27,812 nucleotides of DNA. Origin: a virus. Shown one piece after another: positions 2,478 through 26,711 of this stretch. The stretch lies in IMG/VR virus record IMGVR_UViG_3300017593_000760, positions 1 through 27,812 of that record, one strand, 5' to 3'. The number at the start of each line of letters is the position of its first letter. Position 1 is the first letter of the stretch. The position numbers were made by a program, and so were the translations under genes. A model generated the notes under the pieces. The model was not told the origin of the DNA. It saw only the letters and a list, made by a program, of their open reading frames with translations, and did not search any database.

Positions 2478-4501
2478 ATTCCGCCTCCAAATCTATTCAA
2501 GTTGGTTTGGGAAAGAATGTCCTCTATTTCTTTTAGAGGAGTATAAAACCATTTATTAAGGATAGTTCTATAATCAATTTCAGGAAGTTCATCAATTATA
2601 TCCTCATGAATAGCCAAATAGCCAATAGAATTATTCTTAGTTGGGACAATAGGAAGCTTCTCGCCTGCATAATACGGTATGCGATACAATCGCAGTCTGT
2701 TCTTTGCGGCTTTGAGATGAGACGTCTGCACTTTGGGTGAGGTTGAAGAGAGGCGTATCCATTCGGCTATATCCATCACATTCTGCTTCTTTATTTCCTC
2801 TTGCACTTGAGACTTCAAAGCACGTAATTCCTCCCATTTGCTCTTGAGTATATACTCGTATGCCAACATAAGTGCATTCCTGATATACATGGGACATGAC
2901 GTTTTATTCACCACCGTCCCAGTTATCTTCAACTTGCCGTCTTTTGTGATGCCAAAATAGTTCTTCTTCTTATCGTAAAGAAACAAGACATCAAACTCTT
3001 TATCTATATCGAGATTGAATTCCTCGCCCCATGTCTTATGCAATTCCTCATTCAGCTCATTCATTATTTTCACAGGCTCTGGGTGGACTATCATCATTGC
3101 ATCAGTATCTCCCGCTAATATGGGAATGCCTCGTTCTTCTACACGTTTCCAGATATATGTCAGGAGGGCTCGCTCATGTGAAGTTACCTCAGCTGCCAGC
3201 TTCCTGTTATAAAATCGTGATTTTGAATACCCGAGTATCCCTATACAGGCATTAAGTAGGAATTTATATGAGGTATTCCATATCTGACTTTGAGTGTCTC
3301 CTCTTTTCTTGTATAGCTTCTTGTATTCGAGCCTTCTCTCAAACAATTCCCGAATGGTCTCTGTGAGTATGCCTGGATTCCTGATATCCCTATCGGGCGA
3401 GATATTGAAGTGCATAACAATAGATGGGTAGAGTGACGTAAAATCTAACACCGTGACGCCCCGATGCAGACCCTTCTGTGGTTCTCTAACTAGTGCACCT
3501 TTATACTTTTTATGCTTCACTCTTCCCTTATTAGGCAATACATATTTGTTGTGGTATCGCCTCAAGAGATACGCCTCGATGATACTGCTCCTATTCATAA
3601 TGTCTATGGTATTAAGAGGCACAAGATTCTGAAATGAGAAGACCAACTGTGAGAGTTTCAACTTCTCGTCTATTTCCTTAGTGAGGGTTACATCTTCTAT
3701 ACAATGAAGGAGCTCTGGTAGAGATGGGTCTTTCCTCCTTCCGAGCACAAGATAAGCAACGTGGTCAAGGAAATATCGTCCTCCTCGCTCTCCAAATTCT
3801 CGATACGCTCTCATCAGGTCTAATGGCTGACTTTCTCCTATCGTATATTCATCATGGTATTTCCTAAATACGCTCTTGTCTCTGGCACGATTGAACATGT
3901 AGGTTAAATCGAAATTACTTGAGTTCCACCCAATAATCACATCGAAATCCAGCGTCTTACAGAACGAGAAGAAGGACTTCAATAACTGTTGGTCATCATC
4001 AAATACAAAAGCCTTAACGCCGTCTATTGCATAATCTCGTAATACGAAAGGATAATGTCGCTGAGTGAAGCTATCATAAGCATCAATCACGGTGATGGGA
4101 AGGGGAGCATTCTCAGTGTCGAGAGAACCATTTCCTCGCTCCACTTCGATATCAAAATAAAGTATCCTCCTGTTTAATCCAAACGTTAAATTAGAGTCTA
4201 TCAAGTAGCGAGTCAAATAAGGAATGTCAGACTCCATACTAAAACTGACATTTCGTTTTCCTGTCTCAAGGTCTTTTATTGAATTGAATGAAATCTTATC
4301 AAGAGGCTTGTTGTCATAAGAAACGTATCCCTTCTCCCGTGCAACGTGAGGAAATGAAACCTTTTCTTCTGGTCTTACATAGAAATAAGGATACTTTCCG
4401 TTTCGCACTGAGTAGGTTACCTGAGAACCCTCCCGAAACTTCAATTTAACGGAAGGTCTTGAATTCCGTGAACCAATTAGAGAAGCATTCACAAGTTCCA
4501 T
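2474..4501 (-). CDS. polB: Family B DNA polymerase with 3'-5' exonuclease
   Basis: A complete 675-residue polymerase, shorter than cellular archaeal PolB (about 750-800). Exonuclease motifs: Exo I FDIE (Asp117, Glu119), Exo II NSSNFD (193-198), Exo III with Asp270 but His266 where a tyrosine is usual. Polymerase motif A is DFTSLYPS (353-360), motif B KFLLNACIGILGY (413-425), motif C GDTD (464-467), followed by KKKNYFG (511-517). All three metal-binding aspartates of exonuclease and polymerase sites are present. Motif B reads NACIG where most family B enzymes have NSxYG. It is the replicative polymerase candidate of this element. It overlaps both neighbours, the upstream methyltransferase by 13 bases and the phosphoesterase by 4 bases. 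Confidence 0.97.
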   Translation of the reverse strand: MELVNASLIGSRNSRPSVKLKFREGSQVTYSVRNGKYPYFYVRPEEKVSFPHVAREKGYVSYDNKPLDKISFNSIKDLETGKRNVSFSMESDIPYLTRYLIDSNLTFGLNRRILYFDIEVERGNGSLDTENAPLPITVIDAYDSFTQRHYPFVLRDYAIDGVKAFVFDDDQQLLKSFFSFCKTLDFDVIIGWNSSNFDLTYMFNRARDKSVFRKYHDEYTIGESQPLDLMRAYREFGERGGRYFLDHVAYLVLGRRKDPSLPELLHCIEDVTLTKEIDEKLKLSQLVFSFQNLVPLNTIDIMNRSSIIEAYLLRRYHNKYVLPNKGRVKHKKYKGALVREPQKGLHRGVTVLDFTSLYPSIVMHFNISPDRDIRNPGILTETIRELFERRLEYKKLYKKRGDTQSQIWNTSYKFLLNACIGILGYSKSRFYNRKLAAEVTSHERALLTYIWKRVEERGIPILAGDTDAMMIVHPEPVKIMNELNEELHKTWGEEFNLDIDKEFDVLFLYDKKKNYFGITKDGKLKITGTVVNKTSCPMYIRNALMLAYEYILKSKWEELRALKSQVQEEIKKQNVMDIAEWIRLSSTSPKVQTSHLKAAKNRLRLYRIPYYAGEKLPIVPTKNNSIGYLAIHEDIIDELPEIDYRTILNKWFYTPLKEIEDILSQTNLNRFGGGI

Positions 4502-5268
4502 TCTAAATACTCCTCCAAACTTCTTTGATTCCTATCTCGTCCTAAAATTCTTTCTTGTGCTATTTCACAGTATTTTTCTGATATTTCAATGCCTATCCAC
4601 TTACGGTTCAGCCGCTCACATGCCACTGCCGTTGTGCCAGACCCGAGAAAAGGATCCAATACCAGCATGTCTTCTGCTGTATGATTCTTGATAATTCGGG
4701 AGACTAAGTCCAGTGGCTTTTGGTTCTGATGTAACTGTTCAGCGCCAGAGACTCTTCTGAAGAACCAGACATCGGACAGCCTCTTATCAGACACGAACCG
4801 AGAGCGTCCTTTACTTCCATAAATGATCATCTCATACTGCTGCCCATACTGAGCTTCCAAATCCCCTGCCGTCCAGTTGTTCTTTACCCACACTATAATG
4901 TTCTTGATCTTGAATCTGGTCTTAACGTATCTTTTGAACACGTCTACGGTCTTCCACGAACAGAACGTGTATATGGCAGCATTCTTCCGTAGAATCCGGA
5001 ACGCCTCTCTCAGGAAGAACTTTATCAGGCTTGCATGCTTTATCGAATCGTTATATATTGGCGAACAGAACTCATGTCCCCGGTCTTTACGATAATTGGT
5101 CTCGTAGCCTATCAGATAGGGAGGGTCAGCTATCACCAAATCTACACTTTGAGTCGGAATAATGTTCATTACTTTCAGGGAGTTACCACAAAGCAGCACT
5201 CCGTTCTCTGTATGGAAGTAGTGATATTTGCTATCAATCAGTTTCTTTCTTAACTCTTCCCAATTCAT
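4489..5268 (-). CDS. Beta-class DNA methyltransferase (N6-adenine/N4-cytosine), paralog 1
   Basis: The 259-residue enzyme has catalytic motif IV ADPPY (47-51) before SAM-binding motif I DPFLGSGTT (205-213), the order of beta-class amino-methyltransferases. DPPY favours adenine-N6 methylation, although sequence alone does not exclude cytosine-N4. The end IGIEISEKYCEIAQERILG is standard for the family. It shares its N-terminal SKYHYFHT segment and its C-terminus with the adjacent upstream methyltransferase, so the pair arose by tandem duplication and divergence of the target-recognition middle. The start overlaps the previous stop by ATGA. No restriction endonuclease is adjacent, so this is best read as an orphan protective methyltransferase. 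Confidence 0.93.
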   Translation of the reverse strand: MNWEELRKKLIDSKYHYFHTENGVLLCGNSLKVMNIIPTQSVDLVIADPPYLIGYETNYRKDRGHEFCSPIYNDSIKHASLIKFFLREAFRILRKNAAIYTFCSWKTVDVFKRYVKTRFKIKNIIVWVKNNWTAGDLEAQYGQQYEMIIYGSKGRSRFVSDKRLSDVWFFRRVSGAEQLHQNQKPLDLVSRIIKNHTAEDMLVLDPFLGSGTTAVACERLNRKWIGIEISEKYCEIAQERILGRDRNQRSLEEYLEWNL

Positions 5269-5981
5269 TTTAGGAAATTTATTAAGGTCTTTTGGTGTTT
5301 ATCATATCCTAATACCCGCTTCTGGATTATCTCACAATAACGTTCCGAAATCTCAATACATATCCATCTGCGGTTATGCTTCTCGCATGCCACTGCGGTT
5401 ACACCTGTGCCTGCAAACGGATCCAGTATTAATTCTTCTTCCTTAGGACTGCCACGAAGTAGTAATCTTTCCCAAAATTTGAGCGGTTTGGGACATGGAT
5501 GCTCATAGGATTGGTTATCTAACCCTGTTGCCTCTATTATATCGCTTCTCGCTCCGAGTCCTTGAGTTAAGTAGGGGTCCTTACCATACGCGAGTATAGG
5601 TTGCCATTGAGCAAATCCCCACTTGCCTCTTGAGTTCGTCGTCTTATAGACCCAAGCAAGAATCCAATAAGGAGGTGGATAAAGAGAGATGTTAGTGAGA
5701 CCACAGGTTAATAGCATGACTTTGCCTACTCGCACAGCTTGAGGCATGAATTTCTTAATAAGAGCCTTGAGGTTCTCTTTGATATCCTCATAATTATCGT
5801 ATTGCTTTCCTAATGCGTAAGGAGGATCTGTCAAAATCAAATCTATACTTTTATCGGGGAGCATCTTCATGATTTCAATACAGTCCCCGAGAAGCATAAC
5901 TCCTCGATCGGTATGAAAATAATGATATTTGGAGTTAATCAACTCACAATACAATTTATACCAGTCGGTGTGTTCTGTCAT
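5265..5981 (-). CDS. Beta-class DNA methyltransferase, paralog 2, first gene of operon 4
   Basis: A 238-residue enzyme with motif IV TDPPY (51-55) and motif I LDPFAGTGVT (186-195). The N-terminus (INSKYHYFHTDRGVMLLGD) and C-terminus (RRWICIEISERYCEI) match the next gene, but the central target-recognition part is shorter and different, so a distinct recognition sequence is expected. It is the first gene after promoter module copy A, with a leader of about 100 bases. I see no Shine-Dalgarno before the ATG at 5981, although the alignment with its paralog supports this start. The following gene is coupled by ATGA. Confidence 0.92.
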   Translation of the reverse strand: MTEHTDWYKLYCELINSKYHYFHTDRGVMLLGDCIEIMKMLPDKSIDLILTDPPYALGKQYDNYEDIKENLKALIKKFMPQAVRVGKVMLLTCGLTNISLYPPPYWILAWVYKTTNSRGKWGFAQWQPILAYGKDPYLTQGLGARSDIIEATGLDNQSYEHPCPKPLKFWERLLLRGSPKEEELILDPFAGTGVTAVACEKHNRRWICIEISERYCEIIQKRVLGYDKHQKTLINFLK

Positions 5982-18220: not shown

Positions 18221-18711
18221 TCCCGCAATATGAGATATCCAACACCTAAATTTTTTATGTTCTCTTCTGAATCCTCGTTAATGGGAAGCAATACACCATT
18301 AAAGTCCCAAAGTTCAATCTTCCATTTTCGTATCTTCCAAAATCCTTCTCCATGAGATTTGAAGAAGAGTAGCTTTATTAGTTCATCCCATCCTTCTCGA
18401 TCTGCTAATTCTATATCAAAAGTAAATTCAGCAAAATCTTGATATCTTTCTAATTCTCCACCCAGAATCTTCGCTATGAAATATCCTCGTTCCTTTTTCC
18501 AATTCGGAAACACAAGATTTTTTACCTCAAATACTACATAATAATTTATTAGTAGCCCTGAGGACATCAATTCTGAAAGTTTTGCCAGATGTTTATTCCA
18601 CCCAAAAGAGTAAACCACGATTTGCATCGTCTTCCTAAAGCGATTTGCACTTAATTCTGCTCTATATCCATAAATGGGAATTGCCTCATTCACTTCTCCC
18701 TTTACCACCAT
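18217..18711 (-). CDS. Tandem paralog array member 5 (about 164 aa, diverged)
   Basis: Ends IELWDFNGVLLPINED then NLGVGYLILRE, aligning with member 4. The start is uncertain: ATG at 18711 (MVVKGEVNEA) overlaps the vWA gene by 26 bases, while a GTG at 18693 would give an 8-base overlap next to GGGAGAA, and an ATG at 18732 lies further inside. The body is strand-rich with aromatic residues (NYYVVFEVKNLVFPNW). It is the first array member after the vWA gene. Confidence 0.7.
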   Translation of the reverse strand: MVVKGEVNEAIPIYGYRAELSANRFRKTMQIVVYSFGWNKHLAKLSELMSSGLLINYYVVFEVKNLVFPNWKKERGYFIAKILGGELERYQDFAEFTFDIELADREGWDELIKLLFFKSHGEGFWKIRKWKIELWDFNGVLLPINEDSEENIKNLGVGYLILRE

Positions 18712-19861
18712 CGTAAAAGACGATTTTACCAAATGGAAGCTTCTTGTGATATCTACGTAATTTCTCTGGCACTAACCAAACTACTGGGAAATCGGGAGAT
18801 TTGTTAGGTGGAGTCCCAAATGTATCGGTAACATATATCAAGCCTCGTAATTCAGGATGATTCTCCATCTCCTTAAAGACAGGTCTGAAATCAGTTCCAC
18901 CTCCGCCTTGCCACTTGATTTTATCAAGTTCTTCAGGTTCTCGTATCACGTGTTTCTCGTATAATCTCGCATCACATTGTAACAGGAGGACTTCAAGTTC
19001 GCCTCTGAAACAACTAAACAAGAACTTCATTCCTGATTTAAATTCCGATAGCAATTCCTCATCTATGGAACCACTCGTATCAATAGCTACTCCAATATGT
19101 AATTTGTTACGATTCCGGATAGGAGGCATCAAGATAGGAGGATACCTTCGTTTATTTATTCTCTTGAAGTCTGGCTGGCTAAAGCTCTGTTCAAGCACAA
19201 AAGACGATATGATTTCACTGATAGGTAATGGAGGGTAGAGCAAATCGTGAACCTCTCGACGTAAACCTTTAGGAAGATTCCCTTGCATATATGCTCTTAA
19301 CAGAGACTGTCTTAGCACTTGACTCATCACATTGTCTTTTTTGCTGTGTTTCCATACCTTGTGAGATTCTAATCGCTTCTTTGCTTCTTCACTTAGGGAG
19401 AGTTCTGGGATAGTGGTCATCCCTCGCCTCTCCTTGAGAAGTTCCCTGTATATCTGTTCAAATGTCATGCCGTCGAATCGTGAGTCGTATAACATACCAA
19501 GACGTAACCGATTGAATTCCTCCTTGATTATTGAATTAACAGCATAATCCGCAGCCATATTCGCTATCTGCCATTCTGCATCGTTTCGAGCTATTCGCAT
19601 CCTGGAGTCACCAAGATGATGCAAAAGGAGATGCAGGTATTCGTGAGCCAAATCAATCACGAGTTCTTGTGGAGATGATTCATTAAGATATTCCTCATTC
19701 ACATAGATTCGTTCCCCATCTGTGCAAGCTGCTTCAATCTTCTCACCTTCCAATTCGTATGGTGGAGGAAGTGGAACAACTGGAATTCCGAGTATTCCAG
19801 ACCAGAATGGCTTTTCACGTAAGAACATGAATTTAGCTCTCCGTATCTTCTTTTCGTTCAT
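18686..19861 (-). CDS. DUF2201-type putative metallopeptidase plus vWA-like domain
   Basis: The 391-residue protein has a zinc-peptidase-like N-terminal domain with HEYLH (73-77), and AEWQIANMAADYAVN (about 95-109) that may give the third ligand. The C-terminal vWA-like domain has a MIDAS site: DTSGS (261-265), GGGGTD (319-324) and VTD (344-346). This two-domain layout is the DUF2201 family, nearly always encoded with a MoxR-type AAA+ ATPase, which is found a few genes upstream here. The pair is thought to act as a metal-dependent chaperone or maturation machine for partner complexes. GAAGG precedes the ATG. The five paralogs that follow are candidate clients. Confidence 0.9.
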   Translation of the reverse strand: MNEKKIRRAKFMFLREKPFWSGILGIPVVPLPPPYELEGEKIEAACTDGERIYVNEEYLNESSPQELVIDLAHEYLHLLLHHLGDSRMRIARNDAEWQIANMAADYAVNSIIKEEFNRLRLGMLYDSRFDGMTFEQIYRELLKERRGMTTIPELSLSEEAKKRLESHKVWKHSKKDNVMSQVLRQSLLRAYMQGNLPKGLRREVHDLLYPPLPISEIISSFVLEQSFSQPDFKRINKRRYPPILMPPIRNRNKLHIGVAIDTSGSIDEELLSEFKSGMKFLFSCFRGELEVLLLQCDARLYEKHVIREPEELDKIKWQGGGGTDFRPVFKEMENHPELRGLIYVTDTFGTPPNKSPDFPVVWLVPEKLRRYHKKLPFGKIVFYDGGKGRSE

Positions 19862-19900
19862 ATTAAACCTTCAATCATACAAGCCCCTAACCCCAATCCC

Positions 19901-20121
19901 CTAATACTCCCCTAATAAGCATAAGGAAAGAAGTGAGTCATATTCTTCCTTTTCTTCCTCTTCTCTCGTAACGGGCTTTCCATCGGGCGCTTCAATGTTC
20001 TCATCAAAAGCATCAAGGTTCGTATCATAAAATCGCATATATGTGAATTCTCTCCGTCTGATTTCCTCGTTAAATAGTAATACTTCGTAACTCCACCTTT
20101 GGTTATGTCAAATTCGTTCAT
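19901..20121 (-). pseudogene. Probable frameshifted small gene (about 70 aa)
   Basis: A ribosome site (GAGGAAG) and ATG at 20121 start a frame MNEFDITKGG, but this frame soon becomes an unnatural run rich in Met, Arg and Lys ending at 19912. The overlapping frame from 20107 to the TAG at 19901 reads like normal protein (SYEVLLFNEEIRRREF, then FYDTNLDAFDENIEAPDGK, then EEEKEEYDSLLSLCLLGEY) but has no start codon at its beginning. A one-base change near 20105-20121 would join the ATG to this frame. Either a real frameshift, a programmed shift, or a sequence error. The product family is unknown. Confidence 0.5.
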
Positions 20122-20130
20122 CTTCCTCAT

Positions 20131-20244
20131 TTAAAGTTTGTTTCCGCATATATCACACACTAATTCTCCATTAACCTTTCGAGCTGTTACATATCGTTCA
20201 CAATATTCACACCAATAAGCGCCTCTTGCTTCCATCGCTTCCAT
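20131..20244 (-). CDS. Tiny zinc-ribbon protein, 37 aa
   Basis: Begins MEAMEARGAYWCEYCERYV and ends LVCDICGNKL, giving two CxxC pairs, a compact zinc ribbon. GAGGTGG lies 6 bases upstream, an ideal ribosome site, and the TAA is adjacent to the next ATG. It is the second tiny zinc ribbon here (the other is at 7871-7981). A nucleic-acid- or protein-binding accessory role is likely; the partner is unknown. Confidence 0.8.
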   Translation of the reverse strand: MEAMEARGAYWCEYCERYVTARKVNGELVCDICGNKL

Positions 20245-20278
20245 TTTTATCCACCTCTATTCATTTCTCAATCTGTTT

Positions 20279-20356
20279 TTACCATTCCCCTATCATCTCT
20301 TCTGCAAGGCTCGTATAACCTCCGCTACTTATTACGATAAAATCTCTAATTGTCAT
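20279..20356 (-). CDS. Possible 25-aa small protein
   Basis: MTIRDFIVISSGGYTSLAEE and five more residues. It overlaps the end of the preceding gene by 11 bases, as other real junctions here do, and fills the gap before the zinc-ribbon gene. The composition is protein-like but the length makes it uncertain. Confidence 0.35.
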   Translation of the reverse strand: MTIRDFIVISSGGYTSLAEEMIGEW

Positions 20357-20591
20357 CTTTAATTGTATCTATGAGTCTTAACATCCAAAGTAGTGCTTGC
20401 TCTACGCCTCTCCAGTAGGGACTTTCTTCGTGATTTCTTGCATGTTGGAGCATCTCATTAATTTCTTCTTCATTTCGGAGTTGTTGAGTTGTTATATTCG
20501 GGAAGAAGCACGAGTTGCTTCGTGCTTTTACCAAAAGAATATCTCCAGGTTTCCAGCCAAACATACGCTTCGTTTCTCTTAGGGAAGACAT
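20346..20591 (-). CDS. Hypothetical protein, 81 aa
   Basis: Not recognised. Starts MSSLRETKRMFGWKPGDIL and contains a helical C-terminal part (EEINEMLQHARNHEESP, then GVEQALLWMLRLIDTI). The start lies inside the end of a tiny membrane-peptide gene (13-base overlap), so they are coupled. The first 35 residues, WKPGDILLVKARSNSCFF, look like a short strand pair. Confidence 0.6.
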   Translation of the reverse strand: MSSLRETKRMFGWKPGDILLVKARSNSCFFPNITTQQLRNEEEINEMLQHARNHEESPYWRGVEQALLWMLRLIDTIKDDN

Positions 20592-20689
20592 GATGCTACC
20601 TCATTGAAATAGCTATTGATAACACGAGTTATTAGATACAATGAGAAGAGTGCGACTCCCACTATAAGCGTTAAGAGGTATAGCACCAT
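20579..20689 (-). CDS. Tiny membrane peptide, 36 aa, first gene of operon 2
   Basis: MVLYLLTLIVGVALFSLYLI followed by a short polar tail ending EVASCLP. One membrane helix covers about residues 2-20. It starts about 60 bases downstream of the predicted initiation site of module B and overlaps the next gene by 13 bases. No strong ribosome site is visible. It could be a small membrane regulator, or a leader peptide. Confidence 0.5.
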   Translation of the reverse strand: MVLYLLTLIVGVALFSLYLITRVINSYFNEVASCLP

Positions 20690-20727
20690 CCACTATTCAT
20701 CGTCTATTTTACTCATTTCCTCTCACA

Positions 20728-20819
20728 TGCACATAAATGCAATATAACAAAATTTGTGTCCGAGACATACTTTTATATTAGCTTTGGGATAAAATTTGCA
20801 TGAGCTTCATCTATGTGCA
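20728..20819 (-). promoter_or_regulatory. Copy B of the 93-bp promoter/operator module
   Basis: Ends TGCACATA (20728-20735) and TATGTGCA (20812-20819) are perfect inverted repeats, 92 bases end to end. The minus strand has CTAATATAAAAGTATG as TATA box (about 20770-20780), giving initiation near 20745-20750. It aligns along its length with copy A (AACAAAAT, GACATA, TTTTATAT, ATTTGCATGA, TGTGCATCTCAT). It drives the vWA/paralog operon. Confidence 0.75.
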
Positions 20820-20831
20820 TCTCATGGGAAA

Positions 20832-21020
20832 TCATGGTGAAGTCGAGGACTGATTTTCGGGAATCTGTGGAGGAGAGGTATCCCAATCATCCATGAGCAA
20901 TGCACCAACAATTATGAATAGCATCCCTAAGAATAGTCCTGCTTCCGAGCTGTTTTCAACTATACAGAGAACTGTTCCCCAAGCCAAGAGAGTCCGTCCT
21001 ATGCACTGAGAGAATGTCAT
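20832..21020 (-). CDS. Small membrane protein, 62 aa
   Basis: Two hydrophobic segments, about 4-21 (SQCIGRTLLAWGTVLCIV) and 27-43 (AGLFLGMLFIIVGALLM), separated by a short acidic loop, and a proline- and serine-rich tail (SPPQIPENQSS). It is coupled to the MoxR gene by ATGA. It is the last gene before promoter module B. No family is recognised. Confidence 0.6.
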   Translation of the reverse strand: MTFSQCIGRTLLAWGTVLCIVENSSEAGLFLGMLFIIVGALLMDDWDTSPPQIPENQSSTSP

Positions 21021-22087
21021 TGTCCACTCACCAATGGGAGGATTTCTTTACCTATGTTCTTCATTAGCTCTCTGAAGTTCTCATCACTCAGCATCTTTCC
21101 AAACATCTCCGGTGGCATTATGTTCTTGAAGTCCACAAGGAATCCCGCTGCTCCCTCAACGTATCCGCTGTGAGATGGGTCTTGCATCCCTTTCTCCCAG
21201 ATTGCCCTGACATATTTGAAATATGCCTTACAATAACTCATCTGCTTCTTCTTATTTCCTTCATTTGCTATCCTCGATAAGAGGGTCTGAATCGTGTATG
21301 TAAGCACATCATATTCATCAGATATCTCGCTAATATCACCTTGTAATATCTTTTGTGTATCGGGAATCTTATCTCGTAGCTCTGTGAATGCCAAGAACTT
21401 CGCAGCAACTGAAGCACCAATTGAGCCACTGAGGTCTTCCACTGACGTCATCCCCTGTCTTAACAACTTAGAGACTCTTTCCCATCCTCTTCCACAAGTC
21501 ACTTTCTCTTCTCTATTTTCCGGGAAGACGTATAAATCATCAGGATGAGATGAGAGATACGCTATGACATCAGGGGATATCCTGTTTCTCAATGCCCAAG
21601 CTTTCCACACCGTAATATCAGGCTCAATGTTTATCTCGTGTATCCTCGCTTCAAGAGGTATTTCAAAATCCACTACTCTTGCACCATGTATTCGTTTATT
21701 TCCAGTGCCACAAACTAACATCCCATCGGGAAGCTTTAGGTCTCCTATCATAAAATCATAGAAGACGCGGTATAATGCTTTCTGCATCCATTCGGAAGCA
21801 TGATTCAGCTCGTCAAATACGAGTAGTCCCTTAAAATCATCGGGATACTTTGCCCACTCTGGAGGAAGCTGCCTCACTATTCCATTCTCTACGTCTGGAA
21901 CACACCAGCCCTCTAAATCAGGTGGCTCAAGTGTAAGTAGAGACTTAGAGACATATTCTATGCCCATCTCCTCCGCTACCTCCTTAATTATAGAACTCTT
22001 GCCTACTCCCGTTGGACCCCATAAGATAAATGGAATCCGTTCTTTATATAACTTCCTAATCTTCTCCTTCGCCTCTAACAAATTCAT
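21017..22087 (-). CDS. MoxR-family AAA+ ATPase
   Basis: A 356-residue ATPase when started at 22087 (MNLLEAKEKIRKLY), chosen because GAGGTGAGGG is just upstream; an ATG at 22108 is possible. Walker A is WGPTGVGKS (23-31), Walker B LLVFDEL (88-94), sensor 1 GTGNK (127-131), then an arginine-finger-like LEARIHEI region. MoxR ATPases work with vWA-domain proteins to assemble, activate or remodel partner complexes. The partner vWA gene is downstream in the next operon, after promoter B, so the two may be controlled separately or by readthrough. Confidence 0.9.
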   Translation of the reverse strand: MNLLEAKEKIRKLYKERIPFILWGPTGVGKSSIIKEVAEEMGIEYVSKSLLTLEPPDLEGWCVPDVENGIVRQLPPEWAKYPDDFKGLLVFDELNHASEWMQKALYRVFYDFMIGDLKLPDGMLVCGTGNKRIHGARVVDFEIPLEARIHEINIEPDITVWKAWALRNRISPDVIAYLSSHPDDLYVFPENREEKVTCGRGWERVSKLLRQGMTSVEDLSGSIGASVAAKFLAFTELRDKIPDTQKILQGDISEISDEYDVLTYTIQTLLSRIANEGNKKKQMSYCKAYFKYVRAIWEKGMQDPSHSGYVEGAAGFLVDFKNIMPPEMFGKMLSDENFRELMKNIGKEILPLVSGQ

Positions 22088-22118
22088 TTCCCTCACCTCA
22101 TGTTGCATATTTAGGAGT

Positions 22119-24070: not shown

Positions 24071-24295
24071 TCAATCTTCCTCGAAGAAGCCCTCTTCTCC
24101 TTTGCCCTCCTGCCTCTCCCGTTGTATAGCCTCCCTAATTATAGCATAAGTGCGAGAAGGGAGTGTTGAACGAATGACTTGATAAAGCTTTTGCGCATCG
24201 GAAATTATATCTTCGTCGCTCGGAAATGCAGTAGGGATTATCTCAATCAGTGTTATCCCTCTGTAAGACCTATCTCCGTGAATTCTTATTTTCAT
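24071..24295 (-). CDS. Hypothetical protein, 74 aa
   Basis: Not recognised. An N-terminal pair of strands (MKIRIHGDRSYRGITLIEI) is followed by a helical part (SDAQKLYQVIRSTL, AIIREAIQRE) and an acidic, glycine-containing tail (EGKGEEGFFEED). It is coupled by ATGA to the amidotransferase gene upstream, so it may belong to that module. Confidence 0.6.
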   Translation of the reverse strand: MKIRIHGDRSYRGITLIEIIPTAFPSDEDIISDAQKLYQVIRSTLPSRTYAIIREAIQRERQEGKGEEGFFEED

Positions 24296-25116
24296 ATCAA
24301 TCCATATAACCGTCCCAAGATAATGCTTCTGTTCCCATCGTCCCCGCTCTTAATAATCTTAGTCTCTCCGCTGTCCTTATCTTCATACACAAATGCACCA
24401 CCGTTCTCTTTAACGTAGTTCCACGCTTCAGTCTTGTCTTTAAATTCCACCTCTTTCACGATATCCAGATATTCATTACCTTTTAGATAAGTCCCGTGTA
24501 TTCCTCTGCTTCTCTTTACTAGGTATTCGCCCTTTCCTACTCTTACCACATTACTATACCAAGATTGATACCAGTTATATTTCCAATCGAGGTCTGTGAA
24601 CTTACGCTTGCCACTCACACGGAAATCACCTATAAGAATCGGTTTTCTACCATTCAGCAGCAATACAAACTTTGAGTATCCAAGCATGTTCTGGAATTCC
24701 TTTGATAACATCAGAAGCATTAACTGTCTCTCACTAAGCTTAAGAGAAGATAAGAACCCAACAAAATTTGCTGTATCGCTTAAATTGCGATTGACATACT
24801 CAAAAGTGCGCAGGTGTCCTCTGTGAAATAATATTGCTCGTTTACCCTTTTTCAGCCTCACTATGAATGGGTGCGTAAGTTTTGGTTTTACTACTGCACA
24901 AGATGCTAATCTCCAGTGACATACAACTGTGTGCTCACCCTGAATCTGGGATAGTGTCTCCCATGCTATCTCGGGTTCCATCATACCTTTAAGCACTTTC
25001 CATTTGCTATCTTCACAGTAGGCTAATCCGAAACCATCGGGATTACTGTTCCAAATATTATTGAATTCTTCTTCGCTTACTTCACTTCCCTTTGGAAGGT
25101 ATCCTATTACGCACAT
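24292..25116 (-). CDS. Class II glutamine amidotransferase-like (Ntn) protein
   Basis: The 274-residue protein starts MCVIGYLPKG, so removal of Met would expose Cys2 as the N-terminal nucleophile of the class II amidotransferase fold. Other landmarks are HWRLAS (67-72), THPF (81-84), and LFHRGHLR (96-103), which is where most members have HNGHI; Arg99 replaces the oxyanion-hole asparagine. It would release ammonia from glutamine, or hydrolyse an amide, for a partner ligase. The amidoligase three genes upstream in the same operon is the natural partner; such pairs are described in phages and bacteria. The final 100 residues are unassigned. Confidence 0.8.
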   Translation of the reverse strand: MCVIGYLPKGSEVSEEEFNNIWNSNPDGFGLAYCEDSKWKVLKGMMEPEIAWETLSQIQGEHTVVCHWRLASCAVVKPKLTHPFIVRLKKGKRAILFHRGHLRTFEYVNRNLSDTANFVGFLSSLKLSERQLMLLMLSKEFQNMLGYSKFVLLLNGRKPILIGDFRVSGKRKFTDLDWKYNWYQSWYSNVVRVGKGEYLVKRSRGIHGTYLKGNEYLDIVKEVEFKDKTEAWNYVKENGGAFVYEDKDSGETKIIKSGDDGNRSIILGRLYGLI

Positions 25117-25117
25117 C

Positions 25118-25459
25118 TTACTTCCTAAATAAGCACTTTAGTGCTCGCTTTAGATTCACCTTTTGATTCTTAATGAATCTTTGACGAAAGTAAAACGGCA
25201 GTCCTAACACGAAAGCGTATTCCTCTAACCACTTGTGGAATCCGGGAGTGTCTATTGGGACAAAGTCAATATTTGTGGCATTCTTTCGCATTAACTCTCT
25301 TAATAGCACATTATTAACGTATACTGCGTTCTCTCCACGAGAAGATGCTAATCCTATTATTTTCAGTTTTTTATATCCTCTTTCCTCCAGAGCTGGTAAC
25401 GAAATCTTGAAGTTCTCCGATGGTAAATAATCATCAGGATTGCATTCTACTTCAATCAT
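25118..25459 (-). CDS. Small paralog A between amidoligase and amidotransferase (113 aa)
   Basis: Started at 25459 (MIEVECNPDDYLPSE), because this aligns end to end with its neighbour and overlaps the neighbour's stop by ATGA. Shared features: an N-terminal PxxxFxxxLPA, a middle KLKIIGLASSRGE, and the strongly conserved C-terminal LGLPFYFRQRFI and RALKCLFRK. No catalytic motif, no membrane helix. Family not recognised. Confidence 0.7.
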   Translation of the reverse strand: MIEVECNPDDYLPSENFKISLPALEERGYKKLKIIGLASSRGENAVYVNNVLLRELMRKNATNIDFVPIDTPGFHKWLEEYAFVLGLPFYFRQRFIKNQKVNLKRALKCLFRK

Positions 25460-25761
25460 TTCTTGCGAAATAAGCATCTCAGTGCCTGTGCCAACCTCTT
25501 TTTATCGCCATCTATATATTTAGTCCGAAAGTTAAAAGGTAGTCCCAGTATCAATGTTTCCTCTTCTCTTTCCTCCATCTCTATTATTCTTGCGTTTATA
25601 ACATTTTGCATTATCCGTTCTTTCCAGCCTTTGCTAATTACTATTTCATTGCCGTGAGTGCCGAATAGTTTAATGCGCTTAACTCCTTTCATCGCAGGAA
25701 GCCGTAAATCAAACTCCTCCTCAGGAAATCCCACAAACTCTCCAACATAAGTTATTTTCAT
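25456..25761 (-). CDS. Small paralog B between amidoligase and amidotransferase (101 aa)
   Basis: MKITYVGEFVGFPEEEFDL, then LPAMKGVKRIKLFGTHG, then LGLPFNFRTKYI and ALRCLFRKK. Similar to paralog A throughout, strongest in the C-terminal 30 residues. Coupled by ATGA to the amidoligase upstream. A conserved basic C-terminus on two small proteins next to a ligase suggests a possible substrate or carrier (inference). Nothing in the sequence identifies the fold. Confidence 0.72.
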   Translation of the reverse strand: MKITYVGEFVGFPEEEFDLRLPAMKGVKRIKLFGTHGNEIVISKGWKERIMQNVINARIIEMEEREEETLILGLPFNFRTKYIDGDKKRLAQALRCLFRKK

Positions 25762-26471
25762 ATTCTTTTCACCATTTCCTCCTGTATCTTTTCAAATCGT
25801 TCAGGCTGTTTAATGAATCGCTTGATGAATAGGGTCACGAGAAGAAGCTGGCGATATGTGGTTATCTTTGGGAGACGAAACTCAACGTCTCCTTTATTGG
25901 CTGTCTTTAGATTTATGAAAAAGTATCTGTCATCCGCATCATCTAAGTGACAGTAATCATTTGGTCCTCTTCCCCAAAGCCTCTCGTCTATATAAACGTC
26001 TGAGAGCTCTGGCAGGACCGCTTCGATTCTCTGATAATTGCTATACGGTATCCTTCCTACATGAACATGGGAGGAAACGAGATACCACCGAAAATACGCT
26101 TGATATATTTGCATTAATGGCTTGAGTGAAGATATCAGAGCTCGCCGAGACAGATATATTGGAGATTTCCATTCCGTGTCATCAATCGTTCCATCTTCAG
26201 TTGGGACGAATCCTCTTGCAGCTAACCTCCCAAAGAGTTCTATTCGTTGTTGGGTATCTCTTTCGTGGTGTCTTCGGAATTCCAGTTCAATTCCCCATGT
26301 GAAATCCCTATTTGTTCCTGTTCCCCTCATTATTTCGTTTCGCCATGTATAGGGATAGAGATTAAGATGCTTACTGCATATATAACCGTATCCTCGAATA
26401 TAAACCGAAGCCACCGTCTCGTGTCCGCATATCCTGCATTTCTTCACATTGAATCCTCTAATCCCCAACAT
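25758..26471 (-). CDS. Amidoligase-family enzyme with N-terminal zinc ribbon
   Basis: The 237-residue protein begins with a zinc-ribbon-like segment (CRICGHE at 12-18, ICSKHLN at 31-37), followed by a glutamine-synthetase-like amidoligase core: WGIELEF (59-65), DGTIDDTEWKSPIYL (93-107), SSHVHVGR (133-140), and NLKTANKGDVEFRLPK (187-202). These match the Amidoligase_2 pattern (GIE.E, D....E..SP, HVHV, EFR). Such enzymes are predicted to form amide bonds on peptides or polymers using ATP. Its neighbours include a class II amidotransferase and two small paralogs. GGGGATAAG precedes the ATG. Confidence 0.82.
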   Translation of the reverse strand: MLGIRGFNVKKCRICGHETVASVYIRGYGYICSKHLNLYPYTWRNEIMRGTGTNRDFTWGIELEFRRHHERDTQQRIELFGRLAARGFVPTEDGTIDDTEWKSPIYLSRRALISSLKPLMQIYQAYFRWYLVSSHVHVGRIPYSNYQRIEAVLPELSDVYIDERLWGRGPNDYCHLDDADDRYFFINLKTANKGDVEFRLPKITTYRQLLLVTLFIKRFIKQPERFEKIQEEMVKRI

Positions 26472-26474
26472 TTC

Positions 26475-26711
26475 TTATCCCCGCAAAACGATTCTTCCAT
26501 CTAAGAGCAATCTGTCCACTGAATCAAAGTTCTCCGTTATTTCGTATCCGGCTTTCCTGTATAACTTATAAAGCTCTTCAAACGACAGTTTCGGTTTCCT
26601 TAAGTTACCACTCGGGTCCCTGAATAGCGTCAAGCCTATCCTCCTGAAGTGGAGGAATTCTCCGATTTCTTTCCCTCCTTTCCATACCTTAAATCTTGCT
26701 ACTCTCTCCAT
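26475..26711 (-). CDS. Hypothetical protein, 78 aa
   Basis: Not recognised. GGAGGTGAT lies 5 bases upstream of the ATG. Basic, with strands (VARFKVWKGGKEIGEF) and a helix (SFEELYKLYRKAGYE), ending in a strand DRLLLDGRIVLRG. It is immediately upstream of the amidoligase (3-base gap) and probably part of that module. Confidence 0.65.
   Translation of the reverse strand: MERVARFKVWKGGKEIGEFLHFRRIGLTLFRDPSGNLRKPKLSFEELYKLYRKAGYEITENFDSVDRLLLDGRIVLRG

Follow-up and report, generated by a model that had tools for sequence, protein, structure and literature searches.

Pairs of an amidoligase and a glutamine amidotransferase are already known from unrelated bacteriophages. The chemistry of the two families is established: the amidotransferase hydrolyzes glutamine, and the ligase activates a carboxylate at the expense of ATP and amidates it. 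Both genes are present in Methylophilales phages, for which cell-wall modification or metabolite synthesis has been proposed (PMC10580990), and a class II amidotransferase occurs in the haloarchaeal viruses phiCh1 and ChaoS9 (PMC8651126). The substrate of the phage pairs has so far been a guess between cell wall and metabolite. We analyzed a virus record of 27,812 bases (IMG/VR IMGVR_UViG_3300017593_000760; the whole stretch is hereafter called the window), which carries such a pair together with two small genes, A and B, lying between those for the enzymes.

The cassette and its viral lineage

The head-maturation protease and the family B DNA polymerase encoded in the record have haloarchaeal tailed viruses as their best matches in the phage collection, and the record also encodes an ERCC4-type nuclease. 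On these grounds the virus is likely to be a tailed virus of archaea. The record is probably a fragment of a larger virus genome, because it is broadly colinear with about 5.5–33.5 kb of a 71.9-kb relative, G006. This contig and two other large ones, L019 (81.8 kb) and L020 (80.7 kb), are the relatives in which the cassette was found; they were reached via DNA polymerase B and via two- and four-sequence alignments. Collection scans with the single sequences of the ligase, the amidotransferase, the AAA ATPase and paralog A gave no matches, and bacterial and archaeal genomes, scanned twice, yielded no relative of the ligase, though these scans depend on short exact motifs and are no proof of absence. 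The DNA polymerase and the AAA ATPase of the record are 90–91% identical to those of G006. Elsewhere in the window, an extra N4/N6 DNA methyltransferase gene (4489-5268) lies between DNA polymerase B and a conserved methyltransferase gene (5265-5981), two genes in whose place G006 has a single one. The virus also encodes a PhoU-like protein (DUF47, PF01865; 9191-9844), which is 70% identical in G006.

The initial annotation had described four tightly coupled genes, transcribed in the order amidoligase, B, A and class II amidotransferase, and the open reading frames lie on the minus strand exactly where it placed them (Table 1). Ligase stop and B start share 4 bp (25758-25761), the overlap of B with A is 22 bp long (25456-25477), and 1 bp separates A from the amidotransferase gene. 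The gene for a 78-aa protein probably forms one transcription unit with the ligase gene, and at the other end, the gene for a 74-aa protein overlaps the amidotransferase stop by 4 bp.

Table 1 Genes of the cassette and its immediate flanks in the window
Feature	Position	Strand	Evidence
Conserved 78-aa protein, directly upstream of the ligase	26475..26711	-	57-64% identical, same place in 3/3 relatives
Predicted amidoligase with N-terminal zinc ribbon	25758..26471	-	ORF, relatives, phage PF12224 profile match
Paralog B, 101 aa, alpha/beta, GLPxxFR motif, predicted non-catalytic accessory subunit	25456..25761	-	
Paralog A, 119 aa, B family, longer N-terminus and insert before last strand	25118..25477	-	
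Predicted class II glutamine amidotransferase	24292..25116	-	Pfam PF13230, phage profile match, invariant residues
Conserved 74-aa protein, directly downstream of the amidotransferase	24071..24295	-	43-60% identical, same place in relatives

Checking the gene order in related viruses, as the annotation had proposed, gave the same succession in the window, G006, L019 and L020: 78-aa protein, amidoligase, B, A, amidotransferase and 74-aa-type protein, followed in all four by a 343-aa protein and an AAA ATPase, with a VWA/metallopeptidase protein further downstream. A and B thus lie between the ligase and the amidotransferase in four of four viruses, and every relative found has them beside the ligase. 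Since this order is conserved inside one broadly colinear virus lineage, it is by itself weak evidence of joint function. Every relative has, downstream of its cassette, a MoxR-like AAA ATPase and a VWA/metallopeptidase-like protein (18686-22108 in the window), a pairing that is also adjacent in HCTV-1.

Compared with G006, L019 and L020, respectively, the window proteins are 66, 55 and 54% identical for the ligase, about 73, 54 and 54% for the amidotransferase (54–75% over the three relatives), 56, 42 and 43% for B, and 58, 30 and 30% for A (tblastn); A and B rank with the most variable proteins of the set. Because synonymous sites are saturated between the window and G006, selection was read from the comparison of L019 with L020, in which dN/dS was 0.08 for the ligase, 0.24 for B, 0.20 for A and 0.04 for the amidotransferase. 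All four genes are under purifying selection, and given these low values we regard their products as maintained proteins.

The two enzymes and their active sites

The 237-aa product of the ligase gene can be assigned on sound sequence grounds to the amidoligases (glutamine-synthetase-like COOH-NH2 ligases). It has the amidoligase signature GxExE ... D ... E ... HxH ... ExR, in the form of G60-x-E62-x-E64, D93, E100, H135-x-H137, R168, Y183 and E197-x-R199. In an alignment of nine proteins, ranging from this virus to phages, G60, E62, E64, H135, H137, R168, Y183, E197 and R199 were invariant, and these nine residues occupy the positions expected for the active site. The signature, on whose conservation among homologs the initial annotation had staked its reading, is therefore kept. 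Within the lineage, the zinc-ribbon residues C12, C15, C32 and H35 do not vary either.

Comparison of a profile of the four ligase copies with one of four bacteriophage amidoligases (PF12224) gave an hhalign Prob of 88.6 and an E-value of 2.7e-6. Pfam Amidoligase_2 matched the L019 and L020 copies weakly, below the cut-off (E 0.008), as the only relevant family match in two of the four orthologs, and did not match the window copy; the phage phiEco32-like COOH-NH2 ligase family PF14395 had no match to the ligase at E <= 10. The structure model of the ligase was poor (pLDDT 48.9), so that its fold is not confirmed structurally, and a fold search with this model, which returned no usable match, was not counted.

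The assignment of the last cassette gene to the class II glutamine amidotransferases is likewise sound by homology. Its predicted product has Cys2 as the nucleophile, followed by HWR (H67, R69), THPF (H82), HRG (H98-R99-G100) and SDT (D114). It matched Pfam PF13230 (GATase_4) above the cut-off (E 2.4e-5), and profile–profile comparison with phage class II amidotransferases gave E 7.7e-19. M1, C2, H67, R69, H82, H98, G100 and D114 are invariant over ten amidotransferase proteins. Both enzyme assignments of the initial annotation thus held up, with one departure: where the phage and halovirus proteins have HNG, each of the four copies in this lineage has HRG. In class II amidotransferases, the Asn of this motif lines the oxyanion hole. 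With Arg in its place, glutaminase activity may be altered, and in view of this change we file the protein as class II amidotransferase-like by homology.

The Asn-to-Arg substitution could also be taken to mean that the enzymes are degenerate and that the cassette now serves as binding proteins only. We consider this very unlikely, as the remaining catalytic residues are invariant and dN/dS is as low as 0.08 for the ligase and 0.04 for the amidotransferase.

Paralogs A and B

A and B share 33% identity over 102 positions (BLASTP E 2e-15), and a blind search of the record with B recovered A (E 3.6e-11). By sequence comparison, then, they are true paralogs, as the initial annotation had held. 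Searches of Pfam, PADLOC, NCBIfam, PHROGs and the PDB sequences gave nothing above chance level for either of them, and the same held for the L019 copy of A in the phage collection; we regard A and B as a family not described before. The anti-phage defence models of PADLOC gave no meaningful match to any of the four cassette proteins. Matches to GapR, MipZ and Csn2 were at chance level and were rejected.

The shared C-terminal motif noted in the initial annotation is real but looser than claimed. Across the eight A and B copies, its only invariant parts are GLPxxFR, I, L and LF. The Cys and the basic tail are not constant: the A copy of G006 has Tyr instead of the Cys and Glu-Glu instead of the basic tail, and LFQ is the ending of two B copies. 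The tails accordingly vary among FRKK, FRK, LFQ, LFEE and FRRRRRKK.

This variation bears on the annotation's suggestion that A and B could be substrates, which the ligase would amidate or conjugate, or else carriers that hold a product during its synthesis. Such a role would suit small, fast-evolving proteins encoded between the two enzymes in all four viruses, with mostly basic tails and a nearly conserved Cys-Leu-Phe. Carriers such as LysW or Pup, however, keep a fixed C-terminal acceptor, which A and B lack, and no Lys, Asp, Glu or Cys is kept in all eight copies, whose C-terminal residues also differ. B is, moreover, predicted to be a compact folded domain. We therefore disfavor this role and judge it unlikely. 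As they have no nucleophilic, acidic or amine side chain in common and no constant tail, A and B, fixed between the enzymes, are better read as binding or coupling subunits than as tags; of the options offered by the annotation, that of a scaffold fits best.

The AlphaFold model of B, built with eight sequences, is a single confident domain (pLDDT 91.6, pTM 0.83). Foldseek searches with it gave no match at E 0.001. The first PDB match was the poly-gamma-glutamate hydrolase YndL (E 0.042, prob 0.91, TMq 0.43), and the second and third matches among viral models were the poly-gamma-glutamate hydrolase (PghP) of phage Bobb and an HCTV-1 protein of PF05908 (E 0.06–0.07), so that PF05908 hydrolases are among the best neighbours in two libraries. 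Further matches, to N-formylglutamate amidohydrolase, amidase_3 and zinc aminopeptidases, fall into the same broad fold class. In profile comparison, the LGLPFxFR of A and B aligned with the QLELSxxxR end of the hydrolases, which comprises their last strand and helix, at a score of 20–23; the best of 60 column shuffles in the larger set scored 20.9 (empirical p about 0.02–0.03). These two weak signals agree, yet they do not prove the link, and a fold shared with zinc amidohydrolases, above all with poly-gamma-glutamate hydrolases, is a borderline proposal.

The best structural neighbours of B bind glutamyl or peptide amides, but B lacks their catalytic residues. Compared with the PF05908 hydrolases, A and B are about half as long, have no Pfam match and lack the metal ligands (HGG..E, HG) and the catalytic Glu; they have no invariant His or Glu, and the Glu of QLELS is aligned with the Gly of LGLP. 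Should the relationship be genuine, both paralogs would have lost the zinc ligands and this Glu. A gene of the poly-gamma-glutamate hydrolase family overlaps the start of qatA, of the Qat anti-phage system, on a Delftia acidovorans plasmid (L045).

The weak resemblance to amidohydrolases acting on glutamyl peptides could also suit a pair that makes a small molecule, such as a secondary-metabolite-like peptide or amide, with A and B as binding or resistance proteins. Secondary-metabolite synthesis is proposed for the phage pair in a passage of PMC10580990 that cites mycobacteriophage Marvin. The conserved block around the cassette, however, contains no other recognizable biosynthetic enzyme, carrier protein or transporter, and we give this possibility only a small chance.

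A proposed amidation complex and its relation to known systems

The explanation we favor, as slightly better than an even bet, is that the cassette encodes a virus-borne, glutamine-dependent complex that amidates carboxylates, with A and B as non-catalytic substrate-binding or coupling subunits. The N-terminal Cys of the amidotransferase would hydrolyze glutamine and release ammonia. The amidoligase would spend ATP on turning a carboxylate into an activated acyl-phosphate, which it would then join to the ammonia, or to another amine. A and B, which would have no catalytic part, may bind the acceptor or hold the ligase and the amidotransferase together. The acceptor would most likely be a protein or surface polymer of the host that carries glutamate or aspartate and whose modification benefits the virus; the faster evolution of A and B fits contact with a host molecule. 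Modification of the virion, the other target raised in the initial annotation, found no support in our analysis.

Amide formation on the bases of the viral DNA, protecting it from host nucleases, would be another use of the same chemistry. The window encodes several N4/N6 DNA methyltransferases, so DNA modification matters to this virus, but they lie about 14 kb or more from the cassette, and the window proteins scanned included no enzymes of base hypermodification (thymidylate-synthase homologs, base kinases, deazaguanine enzymes). This use of the cassette seems highly improbable.

A more specific version of the proposed complex, which we put forward only tentatively and consider rather doubtful, is that A and B derive from a duplicated, catalytically dead zinc-amidohydrolase fold of the gamma-glutamate-hydrolase type, recruited for acceptor recognition by a viral amide synthetase. 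The result would be an amidation complex of four components, a type without described precedent, directed at a glutamyl-containing molecule of a host archaeon without peptidoglycan. As dedicated partners fixed between the two enzymes, A and B offer a tractable handle and could be used as bait for the acceptor.

Among known systems, the phage PF12224 pairs (Methylophilales phages MEP401/402, ctgrD200) resemble the cassette in both enzymes, in their order and in most active-site residues. In four of four bacteriophage records picked from amidotransferase matches, the amidotransferase has the amidoligase upstream, and in three of these the two genes are direct neighbours; the small ORFs between the two in a Christensenellales phage were not A/B-like by inspection. 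A cysteine-rich stretch before the ligase domain in three of four phage ligases recalls the zinc ribbon of this virus. By contrast, most phage ligases are longer (294–672 aa, versus 237 aa here), their amidotransferases have HNG rather than HRG, and A and B, both present here, are absent between the enzymes. In Acinetobacter phage vB_AciJM_313 (PX050566.1), there seem to be two separate amidoligase–amidotransferase pairs, at about 4.8 kb and 21 kb.

phiCh1 and ChaoS9 are archaeal tailed viruses with an amidotransferase beside a protein with ligase-like motifs, but they lack A and B and keep HNG. In ChaoS9, this protein is ChaoS9_220 (L069:2319-3392), annotated as uncharacterized and encoded upstream of the amidotransferase; in phiCh1, its equivalent is split into two ORFs (ORF41 and ORF42). 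ChaoS9_220 has GMEVE, HVH and TIELR motifs, and on these motifs we call it no more than a probable divergent amidoligase; profile comparison gave E 0.14. The MurT–GatD system of peptidoglycan amidation also combines a ligase with a glutamine amidotransferase and amidates a glutamate carboxylate, but it has Mur-ligase and class I amidotransferase folds, and its family is unrelated to this cassette. Archaea have no murein peptidoglycan, so the probable archaeal host calls a cell-wall explanation into question. New here, relative to the described pairs, are the fixed partners A and B and the fact that the virus carrying them probably infects archaea.
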